Assembly: GCF_030816015.1 (NCBI RefSeq)
Contig: NZ_JAUSXN010000001.1
Location: 806,001 to 870,000, forward strand
Length of the DNA stretch: 64,000 bases
Direction of reading: 5' to 3'
Origin: Pedobacter sp. W3I1
GTDB lineage: Bacteria > Bacteroidota > Bacteroidia > Sphingobacteriales > Sphingobacteriaceae
In this document: one piece after another, positions 3,520-39,710 of the stretch
How positions within the stretch are numbered: position 1 is the stretch's first letter
Layout of the letters: each line of letters starts with the position of its first letter
Notes under the pieces: model-generated
Told to the model about the DNA's origin: nothing
Seen by the model: the letters and a program-made list of their open reading frames with translations, nothing else
Databases searched by the model: none
Position numbers and translations under genes: made by a program

Positions 3520-4460
3520 CGGTTGTCACCCTGAGCGGAGTCAAAGGACCTCGTTATAAATATGATGATTAAGATTAGAAGAGCAGGGTCTGTATAATTA
3601 TTTGAGTTTGCTCCCGCTTTCCGTTTTACTTTGCCTGCGGCTTCGTGTTCACTCCAATCGGGTTTAGGTGGCTTTTGAGGTGGTGCTATTTTTGGCTAGG
3701 AGCATATGTGCCTTTTTCCGAGTACTTATCTTGAACAGGTTGTTGCATTTGTCACCCTGAGCGGAGTCGAAGGGCCAATAGGCGAATTGCTATTTATTGC
3801 ACAAACCTTTGTTTCTACACCCGGTAGCAGCGGCAGCCTCCGATATAAAAGTATTACTTTCTCGGTTGTCACCCTGAGGGATAATTTATTTAATAAAAAT
3901 CAATATAAATAACAAGAGATTTAAGGAGATAAATCTCCTCAGATTATCGTCATTGCGAGAAGGCTTTTTCAGCCGACGAAGCAATCTTTATAGCAGGATT
4001 ACTAGCAGGAAAGATTGCTTCGTCGTTCCTCCTCGCAATGACGACCTTGCTATAGGAATCTGTCAATGGTAGCGTAGTCGAAGGACCTCGTTATAAATAT
4101 GATGATTAAGATTAGGAGAGCAGGGTCTGTATAATTATTTGAGTTTGCTCCTGCTTTCCGTTTTACTTATCCCGATGAAATATCGGGATTGCGTGTTCAC
4201 TCCAATCAGGTCTAGGTGGCCCGATAGGTAGTGCTATTTTTTGGTTGGGCGCTTAGCTGCACAAACCTTTGTTTCTAAACCCGACAGCAGCGGCAGCCTC
4301 CGATATAAAAGTATTACATTCTCGGTTGTCACCCTGAGCGGAGTCGAAGGGCCAATAGGCAATTTGCTATTTATTGCACAAACCTTTGTTTCTAAACCCG
4401 ATAGCAGCGGCAGCCTCCGATCCTTATCGGAGCTATAGCGAATAACGGGACTGCTGTTCC
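3520..4460. repeat. Intergenic block of interspersed direct repeats
   Basis: This gene-free block is a mosaic of repeated modules. About 95 bases at 3534-3631 (starting around AGGACCTCGTTATAAATATG) recur almost exactly at 4077-4167. A second module with CTGAGCGGAGTCGAAGGGCC, CAAACCTTTGTTTCTA and CAGCGGCAGCCTCCGAT occurs at 3749-3875 and again about one and a half times at 4259-4422. Short open frames inside (for example 3706-3912 and 4241-4438) merely translate the repeats in two orientations and are not genes. GTCACCCTGAGCGGAGTCGAAGG is also found at other gene ends in this window. Confidence 0.85.
3948..4043. repeat. REP-like palindrome (GCAATGACG family)
   Basis: A long inverted repeat: CGTCATTGCGAG on the left pairs with CTCGCAATGACG on the right, and inside it CGACGAAGCAATCTTT pairs with AAAGATTGCTTCGTCG. 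The whole hairpin spans 96 bases with a short central loop. It sits inside the larger repeat block after feoB. A decayed relative starts around 18052 (CATTGCTAAGAGCGCAGCGATGTGGCAATC). Confidence 0.85.
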
Positions 4461-26057: not shown

Positions 26058-26120
26058 TGTCATGCTGAGGCACGAAGCATCTGTTTCATAGCCCCAGATG
26101 CTTCGTGCCTCAGCATGACA
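26058..26120. repeat. Perfect REP-like hairpin (GTCATGCTGAGG family)
   Basis: Two perfect 26-base arms (26058-26083 starting TGTCATGCTGAGGCACGAAG, and 26095-26120) flank an 11-base loop. It is the cleanest palindrome of the window. The 25930-26345 spacer holds this element, two CTTCGAC...CTCAGA(A/C)TGACA half-palindromes (about 26211-26233 and 26320-26343) and the pdhB terminator, but no gene. Confidence 0.92.
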
Positions 26121-33333: not shown

Positions 33334-36300
33334 TTATACTAATTTCAACTTGCCTTTAACTGCGTAAAAAAGATAGGTTTTAATGTTCTGATAACCCATT
33401 TCAGTAAGTAATATTCTGTAATTATTTACCTGCTCGATGTGTTTATCACTTTCTTCCAGCGTAAATTTATAATCAAGAATAATTACTTCATCTGCATTAA
33501 TCAAAACTCGATCCGGACGGTGGAGTTTTCCATGGGCATCAATGATATTTTTCTCTACAATGTTTTCGCTCGCTTTACTCAAAATGGCCTTAAGTTCGGG
33601 ATTGTTTAATACCTCAAGTGCTGAATCGATTAATTTCTGCTTTTCTTCCTCTTTGATAATGCCCTGCAGAACCAGATTGGCGCTATAATCACTCACCTCT
33701 TTTTCGGTACTGGCACTGGCCAAAATATCATGTAATAAGGAACCTTTTCTTCCTGATTTTTCGATGTTGACTAAATGCTTTAGATGTTTGTCTTCAGAAG
33801 GGATATAAAGCTCTGATAATCGGGTAGTGGTTGGGTAACTTTTTAAATTGATAAAGTTCGAATCCTCTGATTTACTTCCAACAGTTACATAATCAACAAT
33901 TTCGTACACTCCATTTTCATCAAACTGCTCATCAAAAGTGAAGTTAATTACATCACCCATATTGGAGAGCTTTAGCTCCTTTTTTGCCATCGTGGCGATG
34001 TACAAAAAATCTTTTGAGCGTGTAGTAGCCACATAAAGCATATTCAGGGCATCCATGTTGTTATAAAGTAATTCCTCATAATATGCTTTTGCAATTGCCG
34101 AATCGGCCAGTGCTTCGTTGTATTTTAATGGAATCCCTTTTAACTCTTTGTAAACCGTTTCTTCTGAGGATACCCAAAAAGTGCCATTGGGTTTGCCCTT
34201 AATTTCCCAGTTGCAGAATGGGACAAAAACAGCTCTAAAGGCCAATCCTTTAGATTTGTGGATGGTAATAATCTGTATTGCATCGGCACCTTCGGGCGAG
34301 GGTAATGATTTTTTGATACCATCTTCTTCCCACCAGGTTAAAAATGAAATAATTCCTTTTTCGCCAAGCTTACCAGCAGAAGCAGTTAAATCTCTAAAAG
34401 CCAATAGATATGGCAAATTAGCGGTCAGGTTTTTTAAACTATAACTTTCAATTAAAATTTCAACAAGTTCAGGCAATGGAAGTTGTAACCAGCTTTGCCA
34501 GTTCTCGCACAAAGCTACAGGTAAAACTTCTGTGAGTGTATTTAAAGGCTTATTGTTAAGGTTCAGGTAATGATTGGCATTGATCTCTTTATCGTGCAGG
34601 GAATGATACAGCGCAATACAATTGGCTTTATATAATGCCGTTTGCGATTCTAAACCGATGAGCAACTTCAAGGTATTAATGATGAGCTGTATGGCCGAGT
34701 TGTTCGAAATTAATAAAGCATCGCCCGATAAAACCGGTAAGTTATGCCCCATTAATTTTTTAACGGTCAGTAAGGCTTCGCTGTTTGAACGAACCAAAAT
34801 GGCAATATCTTTTAGTGCATATTGCTGTTCGTTTTTGAGGTTGTTTATTTCTTCAAGGATATCGTCTAAAGCAATATCCCTGAAAACAGTTTCCGTAAAC
34901 CGCGCTTCATTCGGTGCATGATCTTTACCGAACTTTTTAATCTTTATGGTTCCACCTTTTAAGGTATTGGTGGCAAAGTTCTGGGTCGAACCTCTATAAA
35001 TATCAGTAATAATGTGTTGGTAATGCTGCTGTTGCCACCACGAAGAAATACTTTCTGGTTTGGTAGCCAGGTTTTCGTTCAGCTCATTCTGCAGCGTCAG
35101 TGGGATAGCCTTGTAAAGGAAATTGTTGAAAGTGATGATGTTCTCCGCACTTCTGTAATTTTCTTCCAAACTTTCTTCCAATACATTTTCTGCGCCAACA
35201 TCCAGCTTGGCATGTTTATGCAGGATGTTCCAATCGCCATTGCGCCAGCGGTAAATAGATTGTTTGGTATCGCCAACAATCAGGTGATCAATTAAATCCT
35301 GACTAGGCGTAGCCATTGCGTTTGTTAAGAGCGATTTAAAACTTCCCCATTGGCTGGTGGAGGTATCCTGAAATTCGTCGAACAAAAAGTTGCGGTAACG
35401 ATTGCCTACTTTTTCCCAGATAAAAGAAGGGTTATCGCCTGCATCTTCGGTAATACCTGAGATCAGTTTTTGGGCATCGCTGATGAGCAGGTTGTCATTT
35501 TCAGCCCGGTATTGTTTCAGTAACACGGCAATTTCCTGCATCAACCTTAAATAATAAAGGTTCTTATTAAAAGCGATGGCGAGACTGTAATTTGGTAAAT
35601 GTGCTAAATAATGCGTTTTTAATTTCTGTAGGATAGGATTTACCGTATCGTAAGCCTCAGGGAAATTTACATTTTTTTGAAACCACTCATCGGGTTCGTC
35701 AATTAAATTGAAAAGCGGTTCTATCTTAGAAAAATCGCCTCTGGCAACCAGGATGATTTTAGCAAGCGGACTGCGCGATTTCCCTTTGAGGTGCTCGGTT
35801 TCTACGCCGATTACGTTCATGGCTTCGTTCGCTTCGGTAGCTAATGCAATCAGCTCCTCTTCAAAGTTTTTAATTTCTGCTTTGGTAATACTGATATATT
35901 TGTTAAATAATTCATCGATGTTTTCTAACCCAAGTGCGCTTACCGCATCTTCAAAAATCTGGAAACGCTCAGAAAATATCTCTCCAATTAAATTATAAAG
36001 CTCGAATTTATAATTCCAGCTTTTGTTATCGCTGATGCGTTCTATGGCAAGATCGATGATCCATTGTAGAAGCTGTTTGTTGTGGTCTAAGGCTTCGTCG
36101 AGTTTGTTTACAAGGTCATCTTTAACCTTATCATAATTCATTTCTAAATTATAATCGGCATTTAGTCCCAACTCGAAAGCAAAACCGCGGATTACTTTTT
36201 GCACAAAACCATCAATGGTGCTTACCGAAAAGCGGCTATAATCATGCAAAATTTTACGATAGATCTTATCTGCTTTAAACTGTAACTCCTCAGCGCTTAG

Positions 36301-36552
36301 TGCCGGGTAAGCCAATAAGATCAGTTTTCTGTAATCTTCAATTTTTTTCGATGGACTGCCCTTTGCCAGCCCAAGTAGCACTTCAAGGATCCTGGTTTTC
36401 ATTTCCTCCGTTGCCTTATTGGTAAAGGTTACCGCTAAAATTTCGCGGTATTTATTCTCGCCACTAAAAAGCAGCGTAAGGTAATGTGCAGTAAGACTGA
36501 ACGTTTTACCTGAACCAGCGGAGGCTTGAAGAATTTTAAGTGGTTGGGGCAT
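33334..36552 (-). CDS. addA: AddA-like UvrD-family helicase/nuclease subunit
   Basis: A 1072-residue UvrD/RecB-type helicase. Walker A ILQASAGSGKTFSLTAHYLT at the N-terminus, TFTNKATEEMKTRILEVLLG (motif Ia), FLFDEFQDTSTSQW (Walker B), VGDTKQSIYRWRNGDW (motif III), ITIHKSKGLAFRAVFVPFCN (motif V) and NMLYVATTRSKDFLYIATMA (motif VI) are all intact. The C-terminus carries PDRVLINADEVIILDYKF, the PD-(D/E)XK nuclease core. With the next gene it forms an AddAB-type end-resection complex. No RecC or RecD gene is nearby. Confidence 0.93.
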   Translation of the reverse strand: MPQPLKILQASAGSGKTFSLTAHYLTLLFSGENKYREILAVTFTNKATEEMKTRILEVLLGLAKGSPSKKIEDYRKLILLAYPALSAEELQFKADKIYRKILHDYSRFSVSTIDGFVQKVIRGFAFELGLNADYNLEMNYDKVKDDLVNKLDEALDHNKQLLQWIIDLAIERISDNKSWNYKFELYNLIGEIFSERFQIFEDAVSALGLENIDELFNKYISITKAEIKNFEEELIALATEANEAMNVIGVETEHLKGKSRSPLAKIILVARGDFSKIEPLFNLIDEPDEWFQKNVNFPEAYDTVNPILQKLKTHYLAHLPNYSLAIAFNKNLYYLRLMQEIAVLLKQYRAENDNLLISDAQKLISGITEDAGDNPSFIWEKVGNRYRNFLFDEFQDTSTSQWGSFKSLLTNAMATPSQDLIDHLIVGDTKQSIYRWRNGDWNILHKHAKLDVGAENVLEESLEENYRSAENIITFNNFLYKAIPLTLQNELNENLATKPESISSWWQQQHYQHIITDIYRGSTQNFATNTLKGGTIKIKKFGKDHAPNEARFTETVFRDIALDDILEEINNLKNEQQYALKDIAILVRSNSEALLTVKKLMGHNLPVLSGDALLISNNSAIQLIINTLKLLIGLESQTALYKANCIALYHSLHDKEINANHYLNLNNKPLNTLTEVLPVALCENWQSWLQLPLPELVEILIESYSLKNLTANLPYLLAFRDLTASAGKLGEKGIISFLTWWEEDGIKKSLPSPEGADAIQIITIHKSKGLAFRAVFVPFCNWEIKGKPNGTFWVSSEETVYKELKGIPLKYNEALADSAIAKAYYEELLYNNMDALNMLYVATTRSKDFLYIATMAKKELKLSNMGDVINFTFDEQFDENGVYEIVDYVTVGSKSEDSNFINLKSYPTTTRLSELYIPSEDKHLKHLVNIEKSGRKGSLLHDILASASTEKEVSDYSANLVLQGIIKEEEKQKLIDSALEVLNNPELKAILSKASENIVEKNIIDAHGKLHRPDRVLINADEVIILDYKFTLEESDKHIEQVNNYRILLTEMGYQNIKTYLFYAVKGKLKLV

Positions 36553-36566
36553 ATCGTTTTTTTAAT

Positions 36567-36617
36567 TCCTCCCGATTGTAAATCGGGAGGTGCCCGCAGG
36601 GCGGGGTGGTTTAATTA
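36567..36617. repeat. GCCCGCAGGGCGGGGTGG repeat, left of the DUF559 gene
   Basis: A CCTCCCGAT/ATCGGGAGG hairpin runs into TGCCCGCAGGGCGGGGTGGT. The same tail, in the same orientation, follows a CCCCTCC-TTT-GGAGGGG hairpin at 37171-37210. Confidence 0.85.
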
Positions 36618-36634
36618 GTGCTTTTAATTTAATA

Positions 36635-37150
36635 TTAGGTTGATTTAACCCCATATTCTGCTATGATATATTCTTCTAAACCCATGATTACAAAATCCAT
36701 TTTTTTCATTATATCATCAACAGTAATACGATATATTTTTAATCCCAGTGAGATTAAATAATCTTCCCTTAATTTATCGTAAGCCTGTTTGTCATCATGG
36801 CTACAGCCATCAATTTCAATTACCAAACCTAGGTGTTTGATATAAAAATCAACTATATAATTGCCAATTATACGCTGCCTGTCAAAATCAATTTTATGAA
36901 AGCGTTTTTTAGTTACCTGCATCCAAAATAATACTTCTGGTAAATTGCCAGCTTGACGAAGGGCTTTTGCCCTTTCTTTTAACCGAGGTTGATAAGGTAA
37001 ATCAGTAATTGGTGTTGTAGTTAAAGTGATCCCATTTACTACAATTTCTTTTTGCAAAATGTTTTTTAACACCCCGTCCTTCGGACACCCCTCTGGGAGA
37101 GGGGAATTCTGGGTGCCTAAATCGGCAGGTGTGTGAGTTTTCCTTTGCAT
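36635..37150 (-). CDS. DUF559-domain protein (Vsr-like endonuclease fold)
   Basis: A 171-residue protein whose C-terminal two thirds is a DUF559 domain, related to the very-short-patch-repair and restriction-endonuclease fold: LKERAKALRQAGNLPEVLFW, FHKIDFDRQRIIGNYIVDFY, GLVIEIDGCSHDDKQAYD (the acidic nuclease core ExDGxxH) and YLISLGLKIYRITVDDI. The first 65 residues are unusual: codons for NSPLPEGCPKDGVLK are an inverted copy of the flanking repeat (37066-37105). The gene is therefore both flanked and entered by one repeat family. Nuclease activity is inferred from the fold only. Confidence 0.85.
   Translation of the reverse strand: MQRKTHTPADLGTQNSPLPEGCPKDGVLKNILQKEIVVNGITLTTTPITDLPYQPRLKERAKALRQAGNLPEVLFWMQVTKKRFHKIDFDRQRIIGNYIVDFYIKHLGLVIEIDGCSHDDKQAYDKLREDYLISLGLKIYRITVDDIMKKMDFVIMGLEEYIIAEYGVKST
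37066..37105. repeat. Inverted copy of the GGGCGGGGTG repeat inside the DUF559 coding region
   Basis: On the minus strand this reads CCCCTCTCCCAGAGGGGTG, then a diverged CCGAAGGACGGGGTGTT. It is the same hairpin plus tail as at 37171-37210 but in the opposite orientation, and it is translated. Confidence 0.8.
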
Positions 37151-37170
37151 TTTTTTGCTTTGGGTTTCAT

Positions 37171-37210
37171 TCCCCTCCTTTGGAGGGGTGCCCGCAGGGC
37201 GGGGTGGTTA
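37171..37210. repeat. GCCCGCAGGGCGGGGTGG repeat, right of the DUF559 gene
   Basis: The CCCCTCC-TTT-GGAGGGG hairpin is followed by TGCCCGCAGGGCGGGGTGGT. It lies 20 bases upstream of the DUF559 start and is a direct repeat of 36567-36617. Confidence 0.85.
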
Positions 37211-37304
37211 AGTATGTTCGCTATTTTGATTTAGTTTTAACCTTACCCTAACTTACAACAATTTAAAATTTTCCCGAAATCATGATATCAACATTTCATA
37301 GGGA

Positions 37305-38099
37305 TTAAGCTTTTTTACTTTTTCTTTTATTGAGTGTTTTATGGCTGATCCTTGCAGGGCGTTCGGCCATTTCTATGGGAAGACCAAGCAGATCGCGGAT
37401 CACTACCGATGCACATGCGCCACCAAATGCTGCGGGCAGATAAGAAACTGTACCATAAGCAGAGCGTTTGAAATTGCTTCCATCAGTCATGATCATCGAA
37501 TTTTTATCCATCTCCTCTGTGGAGAAAACAGCTTTGATTTTACTGGCATTGGAGAGTTTATTCAATCTTTTCCGAACATAACTGGCAAAAACGCACTGAT
37601 AAGTATCAGGGAGCAACGTAATCCTTATTCTGGTGGGATCCATTTTACCACCTGCACCCATCGAACTCACTATAGGAATGTTCTTTTCTAATGCAGTTCC
37701 TAACAAAGTGATTTTTGGCATTACACTATCGATGCAATCCATAATATAATCGAAACCCGATTCTAAAATTTCCCTGCATTTCTCCGGGCTAAGAAAGGTA
37801 TTCACCACATGAAGCTTTAATTCGGGGTTTATGGCCAATAAACGCTCTTGCATAATTGCGGCTTTACTCACACCATGATTGGTAGCCAAAGCAGGCAGCT
37901 GCCTATTCCTGTTGGTTGGATCAACCACATCGCCATCCACAATGGTCATTTCGCCAATTCCAGAACGGCAGATAAATTCGGCAGCAAAAGAACCCACTCC
38001 ACCTAGACCGATCACCAGAACATGTTTCGATTGGAGTTTTTCTATTCCGTCGTTTCCAACAAGTAGGGCAGAGCGCGAAAGCCAGGTAACATCAGACAT
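37305..38099 (-). CDS. tcdA: tRNA threonylcarbamoyladenosine dehydratase
   Basis: A 264-residue E1-like (ThiF/MoeB) enzyme that cyclises t6A37 to ct6A37 in ANN-decoding tRNAs. It starts with WLSRSALLVGNDGIEKLQSK, the nucleotide-binding HVLVIGLGGVGSFAAEFICR, and has TNRNRQLPALATNHGVSKA and GAGGKMDPTRIRITLL, hallmarks of the TcdA/YgdL branch. The C-terminus KTLNKRKSKKA is basic. Length agrees with the family. Probably monocistronic. Confidence 0.94.
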   Translation of the reverse strand: MSDVTWLSRSALLVGNDGIEKLQSKHVLVIGLGGVGSFAAEFICRSGIGEMTIVDGDVVDPTNRNRQLPALATNHGVSKAAIMQERLLAINPELKLHVVNTFLSPEKCREILESGFDYIMDCIDSVMPKITLLGTALEKNIPIVSSMGAGGKMDPTRIRITLLPDTYQCVFASYVRKRLNKLSNASKIKAVFSTEEMDKNSMIMTDGSNFKRSAYGTVSYLPAAFGGACASVVIRDLLGLPIEMAERPARISHKTLNKRKSKKA

Positions 38100-38118
38100 A
38101 TCAATTTTTTATATTTAA

Positions 38119-38247
38119 CCACAGATGAAAAGGATGAACACAGATTTTGGATTTTTAATCTGTGTGTATCTGTACTAATCTGTGGGTAGTTTTTTACTAT
38201 ATTTTTGCCACGGAGACACGGATAACATGAAAATATTTTCTCCGTGG
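38119..38247. repeat. Two hairpin repeats (CCACAGAT and CCACGGAGA types)
   Basis: CCACAGAT (38119-38126) pairs with ATCTGTGG (38178-38185) with inner ACACAGATT/AATCTGTGT arms; next to it CCACGGAGA (38208-38216) pairs with TCTCCGTGG (38239-38247). These fill the tcdA-tatD spacer. Degenerate relatives are visible near 40105-40125 and 59240-59295. Confidence 0.75.
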
Positions 38248-38262
38248 TTTCCGTCCCAGTGG

Positions 38263-38916
38263 TTAACTTTTTAAATTGTTCCAGTCAGCAAAAATACGAG
38301 CTTTAAGTTCATCAACTGTACATTTTTTTAAAATGGCTGCGGCCTGGTAAATCTCTTCAATCGAAACATCAGCATCATCTGTTTCCAGGAAGAAGTTATT
38401 GGTACTTTGAATCAGTTTTGCCGCACCTGAGTTTTCCTTCAACGCAGCCAAACCAAAAGAAAGTAGAAATCCTTTATCCAACAGTTGTTTGCCAAGTTCT
38501 TCATTTTTATTAAAGCCGTGAATAACCATGGGCACTTTAACTTTTAACCGGTCTTTAATTGCAATTAATTCTGGAAAACATTTGACACAATGCAAAATCA
38601 ATGGTTTATTAATTTTTTCTGCCAATTCGATTTGTTTTTCTAAGATTATGGTCTGGTTTTCCAGATTTTCGCCCCTTAGCCGATCTAATCCGCATTCGCC
38701 GATCTGTTTCACATTGGGTTGATTAGCCACAACAGTTAAATACTTCATTTGGAGCTCCAAGTGATCAATTTTGGCAAACCATGGGTGTAAGCCAACCGAA
38801 ATTGGCTTTGTTTTAGGCATTGCTAAAAAGACATCGCTGGTTAACGATAGGCTTTGAATGCTAATTACCCCAGGTTGAGTAGCAGTTTGATGGGTATGTA
38901 TGTCTAAAAAATCCAT
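38263..38916 (-). CDS. TatD-family metal-dependent hydrolase
   Basis: A 217-residue TIM-barrel hydrolase. The frame is open from 38973, but MDFLDIHTHQ at 38916 is the family start with the HxH metal site. Further marks: ISVGLHPWFA, IGECGLDRLRG, EKINKPLILHCVKCFPELI, VIHGFNKNEE and FFLETDDADVS with the last metal Asp. It is shorter than typical TatD (about 260). Family members are 3'-5' DNA/RNA exonucleases. A heptamer tandem repeat lies just upstream. Confidence 0.88.
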   Translation of the reverse strand: MDFLDIHTHQTATQPGVISIQSLSLTSDVFLAMPKTKPISVGLHPWFAKIDHLELQMKYLTVVANQPNVKQIGECGLDRLRGENLENQTIILEKQIELAEKINKPLILHCVKCFPELIAIKDRLKVKVPMVIHGFNKNEELGKQLLDKGFLLSFGLAALKENSGAAKLIQSTNNFFLETDDADVSIEEIYQAAAILKKCTVDELKARIFADWNNLKS

Positions 38917-39021: not shown

Positions 39022-39095
<74 letters not shown>

Positions 39096-39176
39096 TTCCC
39101 ACTGTAAAGAACTCGCGAATAATTCATTATAACACTATACTTTATTAAATTTGCTTAATTATTATTCAAAAAAATC

Positions 39177-39710
39177 ATGAAAAAATTAGTCATTTTATTA
39201 ACGGCTGTATTGATTTCGACAGCGGCGTTTAGTCAGGCGAAAAAAGAAGGCGTTCATATCTATAACCCTCAAGCGGACGCTAAAGCTGAAATTGCTGTTG
39301 CGGTTGCAAAAGCTGCCAAAGAAAATAAACATGTTTTGCTACAGGTTGGCGGGAACTGGTGCAGCTGGTGTATTGCCTTCCATAATCTGGTTGACAGCAC
39401 AGCAACGCTAAAAAAATACATTAACGATAATTTTGAAACCGTTCTGGTTAATTACAGTCCTGAAAACAAAAACGAAAGTGTTTTGGCTAGTTTAGGTTAC
39501 CCTCAGCGTTTTGGCTTTCCGGTATTTTTAATTCTTGATGGGAAAGGGAAAGTATTACACATCGAAAACTCCTCTTACTTAGAAACAGAAGAAATTGGCG
39601 CTAACGGTAAAAAGAAAGTCGGACATGATGTAAAGAAAATCACCTCGTTTTTAAAAGGATGGACAACAACCGCGGTTAATCCTGAAACTTATAAACCTAA
39701 GGCCAAATAG
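39177..39710 (+). CDS. Secreted thioredoxin-family protein
   Basis: A 177-residue protein with a signal peptide (MKKLVILLTAVLISTAAFSQ) and a thioredoxin-like domain with the active-site motif NWCSWC at about residues 60-65 (VLLQVGGNWCSWCIAFHNLV), then LVNYSPENKNESVLASLGYP and FGFPVFLILDGKGKVLHIEN with the cis-Pro. It likely acts as a periplasmic disulfide reductase or chaperone of the DUF255/thioredoxin-7 type. The CSWC dipeptide differs from classical CGPC. Monocistronic. Confidence 0.88.
   Translation: MKKLVILLTAVLISTAAFSQAKKEGVHIYNPQADAKAEIAVAVAKAAKENKHVLLQVGGNWCSWCIAFHNLVDSTATLKKYINDNFETVLVNYSPENKNESVLASLGYPQRFGFPVFLILDGKGKVLHIENSSYLETEEIGANGKKKVGHDVKKITSFLKGWTTTAVNPETYKPKAK

Follow-up and report, generated by a model that had tools for sequence, protein, structure and literature searches.

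A DUF559 nuclease gene bounded by its own triplex-type palindromic repeats: a putative mobile cassette in Pedobacter and other bacteria

Why does a small nuclease gene in Pedobacter sp. W3I1 lie between copies of a palindromic repeat and carry a further copy within its own coding sequence? The locus lies in a 64,000-nucleotide stretch of the genome, which was analysed as a whole and is referred to here as the window. The gene (36635..37150, minus strand), recognized from its open reading frame (ORF) and by Pfam, encodes a DUF559 (YcjD-like) nuclease of 171 residues with a Vsr/EDxHD-type core. It is flanked by a UvrD-family helicase gene outside the cassette (33334..36552, minus strand) and a ThiF family gene (37305..38099, minus strand). 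A sequence-only reading had proposed that repeat tails lie on both sides of the gene in direct orientation and that an inverted copy is translated within the protein, and both proposals hold. Exact matches to the tail GCCCGCAGGGCGGGGTGG lie on the plus strand at 36592-36609 and 37190-37207, and no further position of the window matches it with up to three mismatches allowed (0 in 100 shuffles). Repeat copy 1, on the helicase side (36568..36609, plus strand), consists of a hairpin at 36568-36590 followed by a linker hairpin and tail at 36592-36609. Copy 3, on the thiF side (37171..37207, plus strand), comprises a hairpin, a linker hairpin and a third arm, GGGGTGG. Copy 2 (37069..37105, minus strand) is inverted and encodes NSPLPEGCPKDGV in the nuclease N-terminus; it is translated in the same frame in all ten aligned genomes. 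As single-stranded DNA, each outer copy is predicted to form two hairpins (z -3.6 and -5.9; 0/200 shuffles as good for each), and the predicted fold of the inner copy is weak (z -1.9; 12/200 shuffles as good). An Rfam search of 35800-38400 returned no match. In the 6.4-Mb genome, the GCCCGCAGGGCGGGGTGG tail pattern is found at 17 places with up to three mismatches, two of them at the window locus, and the backwards-pattern control at none. The only further DUF559 gene of this genome likewise lies between hairpin-plus-tail repeats, whose sequence differs. At about 6215 kb, the window repeat recurs at least six times, with repeated spacers, within some 0.9 kb (L007, 1190-2100), without a DUF559 gene there. 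Two other repeats were seen in the window. A second palindromic family, TGTCAYNCTGAG..., lies at 3525, 3751, 3868, 4328, 18169, 26059, 26109, 26222, 40169 and 58038, with a perfect inverted pair at 26058-26120, and recalls GTC/CGTC-type repeats; a minisatellite of about five copies of a 14-bp unit, TATGGACTATGGAC, occupies 39022-39098, upstream of an ORF at 39177-39710.

The window was scanned for three-arm motifs, defined as a C-arm, loop, G-arm, linker of up to 14 nt and third arm, with one mismatch permitted per comparison and the third arm required to fit antiparallel G·G and A·A/T. Only two motifs were found in the 64 kb, both at the DUF559 locus (copies 2 and 3), and 20 shuffled windows yielded one in total. 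Two of the three window copies thus meet the triplex rule of three arms and antiparallel purine triads; copy 1 has a different hairpin, CCTCCCGATT/AATCGGGAGG, and was missed by the scan. Judged from its predicted arms, the window repeat is a long-linker variant of the class known as BoxC, PIT or "intrastrand triplex motif". Such repeats (BoxC, PIT, TM) were described in more than 260 genomes by Holder et al. in 2015, and the E. coli motif is reported there to form a triplex in vitro (PMC4666352). Like these, the window family combines a C-arm and a G-arm with a third, purine arm compatible with antiparallel triads, and has many scattered copies, some of them in inverted pairs. Its second linker differs, being 11-12 nt long and forming a hairpin of its own. 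This is outside the ITxF loop limit of 1-6 nt, so by loop size the family is a variant and not an ITxF member. The copies described here also lie inside reading frames, unlike the E. coli motifs, which are reported to be always intergenic (PMC4666352). The sequence-only reading had spoken of an undescribed class; the repeat class itself is known, and what seems new is the long-linker variant and the link to a nuclease.

Base-triple co-variation suggests that the predicted triplex geometry is under selection. The fetched loci hold 82 distinct window-family copies, which were compared at the purine arm's 5' base and the third arm's 3' base: G accompanies G in 38 and A accompanies T in 38, no combination is swapped, and six copies have another base. 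A longer context for telling copies apart gave 39, 38, 0 and 6 of 83, respectively. Some of these loci had been fetched with a pattern containing one of the two compared bases; once every pattern-fetched locus is set aside, the counts are G-G 25, A-T 17, swapped 0 and other 1 (n=43). Among copies with a readable stem partner, 35 have the triple T-A·T, 24 have C-G·G and two have others. Furthermore, the linker stems vary on both sides together (CCC/GGG, TCC/GGA and CCT/AGG). Since the class of the linker varies in part independently of that of the triple, descent of two subfamilies is not a full explanation. The copies do share ancestry, and hence a Fisher value for this co-variation is no probability of independent events.

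We then ask how far such repeats accompany DUF559 genes elsewhere. The sequence-only reading had called for a survey of DUF559 genes and would have been refuted by a repeat equally common around random genes and absent from DUF559 genes elsewhere, which is not what we find. Two sets of loci were analysed. Set 1 was drawn from species genomes, where E. coli YcjD has 278 relatives, of which 80 loci were kept; it includes some DUF559 domains within longer ORFs; its loci are not independent, because many are enterobacterial. Set 2 comprises 80 stand-alone Bacteroidota loci, hand-picked and not all that could have been picked, two of them from the window genome and a few broken. Of the 160 loci, 135 have a strict motif no more than 500 bp from the DUF559 domain (71/80 in set 1 and 64/80 in set 2), and 63 have one on both sides (29/80 and 34/80). 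Its density falls from 7.2 (set 1) and 4.5 (set 2) per kb at 0-100 bp to 0.014 and 0.013 per kb at 2-3 kb, a 300- to 500-fold drop, and shuffled loci of both sets (one shuffle per locus) contain none. Among the 25 loci without a strict motif within 500 bp, 23 have some GC-rich hairpin there, a count of limited weight since such hairpins are common in GC-rich genomes. For that reason plain GC-rich hairpins were dropped as a measure of linkage; even after shuffling, loci of the named set contain 1.3-2.1 of them per kb. Exact repeats of at least 14 nt are common to both 450-bp flanks in 31 of 76 loci (set 1) and 50 of 79 (set 2), compared with 0/69 and 1/73 for flanks 1 kb out and with 1 and 0 in shuffles; loci with short flanks are left out of these counts. 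Inspection by eye of the flanks of 13 stand-alone DUF559 loci from the genus showed hairpin-plus-tail repeats at every one, in some cases on one side only. The same is true, again with some on one side only, of all 11 loci inspected from other phyla, namely E. coli ycjD, Synechocystis, Neisseria, Azospirillum, Sinorhizobium, Sphingomonas, Sphingobium, Pseudanabaena, Picosynechococcus, Deinococcus and Methylobacterium. BoxC-type repeats adjoin ycjD in E. coli and related loci (L079 by eye; L090 and L091 by scan). As far as sequence comparison can take it, we regard the linkage of gene and repeat, and its specificity, as established. Two settings are recorded for themselves: a DUF559 gene with repeats lies between sufB and sufC on a Sphingomonas plasmid (L084), and another within an hpa gene cluster on a Deinococcus plasmid (L088).

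The encoded protein is, by active-site pattern and fold, a Vsr/EDxHD-fold nuclease, although DNA cleavage is only inferred. Its ORF matches PF04480 (DUF559) with an E value of 2.4e-24 and 85.7 bits against a gathering cut-off of 20.6, and each element of the active-site pattern E, D, E-x-D-G-xx-H, D, R is present in at least 97% of the 160 domains. In the AF2 model (pLDDT 84.8, pTM 0.75), the repeat-encoded N-terminus is of low confidence (pLDDT about 53). The best Foldseek matches are 3hrl (E 5.7e-5) and the homing endonuclease I-Bth0305I (3r3p, E 3.6e-4), and a profile search agrees on both (I-Bth0305I E 2.3e-7); Vsr itself (1vsr) is a weaker match (rank 10, E 0.08, prob 0.97). YcjD has been connected to Vsr by profile (PMC1189080), a DUF559 gene has been placed in the EDxHD family (PMC9403480), and segments with a transposase and DUF559 are described as mutation hotspots in Legionella (PMC12308824). 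The nuclease core is intact and, with dN/dS of 0.06-0.09 in six comparisons (three others were not computable), is under purifying selection.

In related genomes, the interval between thiF and the helicase gene exists in several states. Across 30 thiF loci fetched from 99 genomes searched, it is empty in 12, holds a solo repeat in five (G011 being scored as solo by eye), a DUF559 gene in ten, a decayed gene in one and another gene pair in two. In the last two (L301 and L302, from G030 and G079), a nucleotidyltransferase/HEPN-like pair, identified by eye, occupies the interval without DUF559. Presence of DUF559 changes at least eight times on the thiF tree, with near sisters differing, and such counts cannot separate gain from loss. 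In an ungapped comparison with genome G000, DUF559 and thiF have diverged to a similar extent in most of seven usable rows, with G050 as an exception; the lack of gaps made rows G031 and G021 unusable. Since the two genes diverge about equally, the window-site gene looks inherited and repeatedly lost, that is, mostly vertical descent as far as these divergences indicate; in G050, transfer of the DUF559 gene is possible. These data bear on a rival explanation in which a resident, repair-type DUF559 nuclease merely trims or resolves repeats that were spread otherwise, the linkage arising via regulation or selected proximity to the substrate. It is favoured by the mostly vertical inheritance at this site, by the purifying selection on the nuclease core, and by related enzymes: Vsr itself acts in repair as an endonuclease, and Caulobacter VsrA, a protein with a DUF559 domain, has been linked to DNA damage and to predicted mismatch repair (PMC12907096).

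The rival of resident processing leaves unexplained the motif-nuclease-motif units found inside conserved genes. Among 29 DUF559 loci in large ORFs, 20 have a strict motif within 500 bp of the domain, and 15 have motifs on both sides of it, all 15 in frame. Large-ORF DUF559 proteins were consequently rejected as a negative control, and distance within loci together with shuffles served as controls instead. The remainder are mostly ORFs of about 400 residues, including HisF-type fusions (L029 by Pfam, L033 by eye); in these, DUF559 is fused to the HisF N-terminus with no motif left, possibly a case of domestication. Pfam, run on ten ORFs, placed DUF559 within LeuS at two sites (L024 and L044), MetH (L065), PriA (L122) and HsdR (L055), as well as in class I tRNA synthetases (L125 and L140) and GHMP kinases (L131 and L139), which we read as apparent IleS and IspE, respectively; further in-gene loci were judged by eye only. 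One IspE-like ORF (L139) contains two DUF559 domains beside its kinase domain. The IleS-like ORF of L140 also bears a GNAT acetyltransferase domain (PF13302, residues 544-686) downstream of the DUF559 insert, and the motif scan found none beside the GNAT domain.

At LeuS site 1, two of 30 genus loci read (from 58 matches in 60 genomes) carry the cassette, 27 have a loop of 10-24 residues, and one could not be parsed; at site 2, three of 13 loci are filled. Empty sites, which the sequence-only reading had proposed to look for, are thus seen at both LeuS sites and in the thiF-helicase interval. Each of the two genomes with a site-1 cassette has a single LeuS match, so LeuS should tolerate the insert. 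The site-1 cassettes end in CTCACCC-type and GGGTGAG-type arms, whereas the outer copies at the window locus are direct. The LeuS loop is replaced by the cassette with no clear target-site duplication seen, and in G008 the loop resembles a leftover third arm. The host genes of the in-gene cassettes differ, and the reading frame is open across both junctions. Translation can pass in frame through the repeats, and a cassette is therefore inferred to be able to persist within a gene.

Resident processing also fails to explain why repeat-rich genomes mostly carry the gene. Repeat matches in Enterobacteriaceae number 17-246 in the ten genomes whose DUF559 is strong and intact, and at most four in 72 of the 79 others. 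The other seven have 11-116; two of these harbour a broken or remnant DUF559, and in five genomes with 19-116 repeats the DUF559 match is absent or weak in a large ORF. The contrast at ten or more repeats (10/10 vs 7/79) gives a Fisher p of 4e-9, or 2e-6 for genomes of at least 4 Mb (89 genomes, kinship ignored); the enterobacterial pattern is nearly mirror-symmetric, and the backwards control is therefore invalid there. In E. coli, for which 60 evenly spread records were sampled and one 132-kb record dropped, 37 ycjD-positive chromosomes have 15-33 repeat places (median 23) and 22 ycjD-negative ones 2-23 (median 6). Some E. coli lineages have ycjD, and others the eef operon, between sapF and fabI (PMC12817139). 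Within the genus, at least four repeat matches occur in 15 of 18 genomes with the window clade vs 19 of 81 others. None of these three copy-number comparisons is phylogeny-corrected. A tree-based test of gene presence against repeat number in the genus had six independent pairs, of which one to three agree and none opposes (median p 0.25).

Finally, resident processing leaves unaccounted for a repeat type that tracks the enzyme clade at unrelated sites. Protein clade and repeat type are closely correlated in a set of 53 stand-alone genus loci (Mantel r 0.913; 0/2000 permutations), 52 of which carry a motif when 7-nt arms are allowed. Repeat similarity is 0.87 for the same clade in different genomes (264 pairs), 0.43 for different clades in different genomes (938 pairs) and 0.44 for different clades in the same genome (23 pairs). 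Even for the 83 same-clade pairs that lack similarity in their outer flanks it is 0.85, which rules out a shared locus as the cause. An Enterobacteriaceae genome (G318) likewise has a divergent DUF559 adjoining divergent repeats. Taking both sides together, we consider resident processing unlikely, while it survives better than any other rival. According to a second rival, breakage-prone triplex motifs are hotspots that collect foreign genes, DUF559 being a common guest. Loci around triplex motifs in E. coli do vary more than control sites, as Holder et al. report (PMC4666352), and the other gene pair in G030 and G079 shows the window site occupied without DUF559. A passenger leaves no reason for the correlation of repeat type with enzyme clade, nor for motifs of the same loci becoming 300-500 times rarer beside other genes 2-3 kb away, and we think this rival quite improbable.

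A third rival would have the repeats mobilized in trans by an HUH transposase (RAYT or IS200/IS605), with DUF559 as an accessory. The repeats are indeed REP-like hairpins with tails, and some loci have tandem inverted-pair arrays that resemble REPINs by eye. The GTAG tag is absent from either strand at 36560-36612 and 37165-37212, however, and Pfam found no HUH Y1 transposase in the window ORF or its two neighbours, the former matching only DUF559 and MTES_1575. In E. coli, Holder et al. likewise report no transposase or integrase remnants near the motifs (PMC4666352). We hold mobilization in trans to be very improbable. That the repeats are chance look-alikes or ordinary terminators, GC-rich hairpins after genes, is in our view already refuted, for although plain hairpins are as frequent in shuffled loci as noted above, the three-arm motif is absent there and occurs once in 20 window shuffles, its third arm co-varies with the stem, and copies lie inside reading frames.

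The arrangement had been likened, from the sequence alone, to RAYTs travelling with their REPs. The likeness gains from the linkage and the clade-specific repeats: in both systems, REPINs included, short palindromic repeats adjoin the enzyme gene, solo copies are scattered, and enzyme clade is tied to repeat type. Its limit is that the evidence is genomic alone, with neither cutting nor movement shown. In contrast to RAYTs, DUF559 is a Vsr/EDxHD-fold nuclease and not an HUH tyrosine transposase, and the window repeat lacks GTAG and has a third arm. Rickettsia palindromic elements are palindromic repeats without a known transposase that also occur inside genes, and their tag and stem differ from those of the present repeats. 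CGTC-tagged REPs, described as lacking a transposase (PMC3733652), are similarly palindromic and also found inside genes, again with a different tag and stem. EDxHD homing endonucleases such as I-Bth0305I share a related catalytic domain, genes inside conserved genes, and empty alleles of occupied sites, as at the two LeuS sites and the thiF-helicase interval. DUF559 cassettes have no intron or intein, occupy many unrelated sites and have flanking repeats. Moreover, I-Bth0305I is described as having an extended DNA-binding region (PMC3943268), for which the short stand-alone DUF559 proteins have no room. Vsr and Caulobacter VsrA share the fold (1vsr) and, in VsrA, the DUF559 domain; no repeat link is mentioned in the accessible part of the VsrA report (PMC12907096). 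Holder et al. found no mobility gene and leave the origin of the repeats open, and neither DUF559 nor ycjD appears in the main text (PMC4666352). The literature searched, from which preprints, most subscription papers and supplements were outside the scope, yielded no DUF559-repeat link. The novelty rests on enzyme and repeat both differing from the nearest analogue, RAYT/REP, and on the nearest enzyme relatives, the EDxHD homing enzymes, having no known repeats of their own in that literature.

At the level of sequence, the present data demonstrate the linkage in many phyla, clade-specific repeats in the genus and triple-like co-variation of the arms, together with an intact nuclease core under selection, in-frame cassettes, and orthologous sites that are empty, hold a solo repeat or have decayed. 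The window locus is probably a mobile, though here mostly resident, cassette in which a DUF559 nuclease gene is bounded by its own triplex-type palindromic repeats. On balance, we also favour a broader model, if with somewhat more reserve: stand-alone DUF559/YcjD nucleases would be the mobilizing enzymes of BoxC/PIT repeats, forming a class of triplex-ended transposable elements that spread by nuclease-triggered repair and leave non-autonomous solos, and that are tolerated in frame inside essential genes such as leuS. In this putative model, the nuclease would recognize the folded repeat of its own family, hairpin plus third arm, and nick or cut at it. Repair of the break would then copy or move the repeat elsewhere, either alone, as BoxC-like solos, or paired with the gene in between. 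The scattered solos would be non-autonomous offspring, like the REPs of RAYTs, and gene loss would leave solos or decayed remnants.

If this model is true, the origin of the long-puzzling triplex repeats may be explained, and the existence of a cognate nuclease opens that question to experiment in E. coli K-12, which carries ycjD as well as the repeats. A large protein family without a known function would also gain a role, mobile systems would be joined by one whose enzyme belongs neither to the HUH transposases nor to the intron or intein homing enzymes, and odd in-frame inserts in essential proteins would be accounted for.
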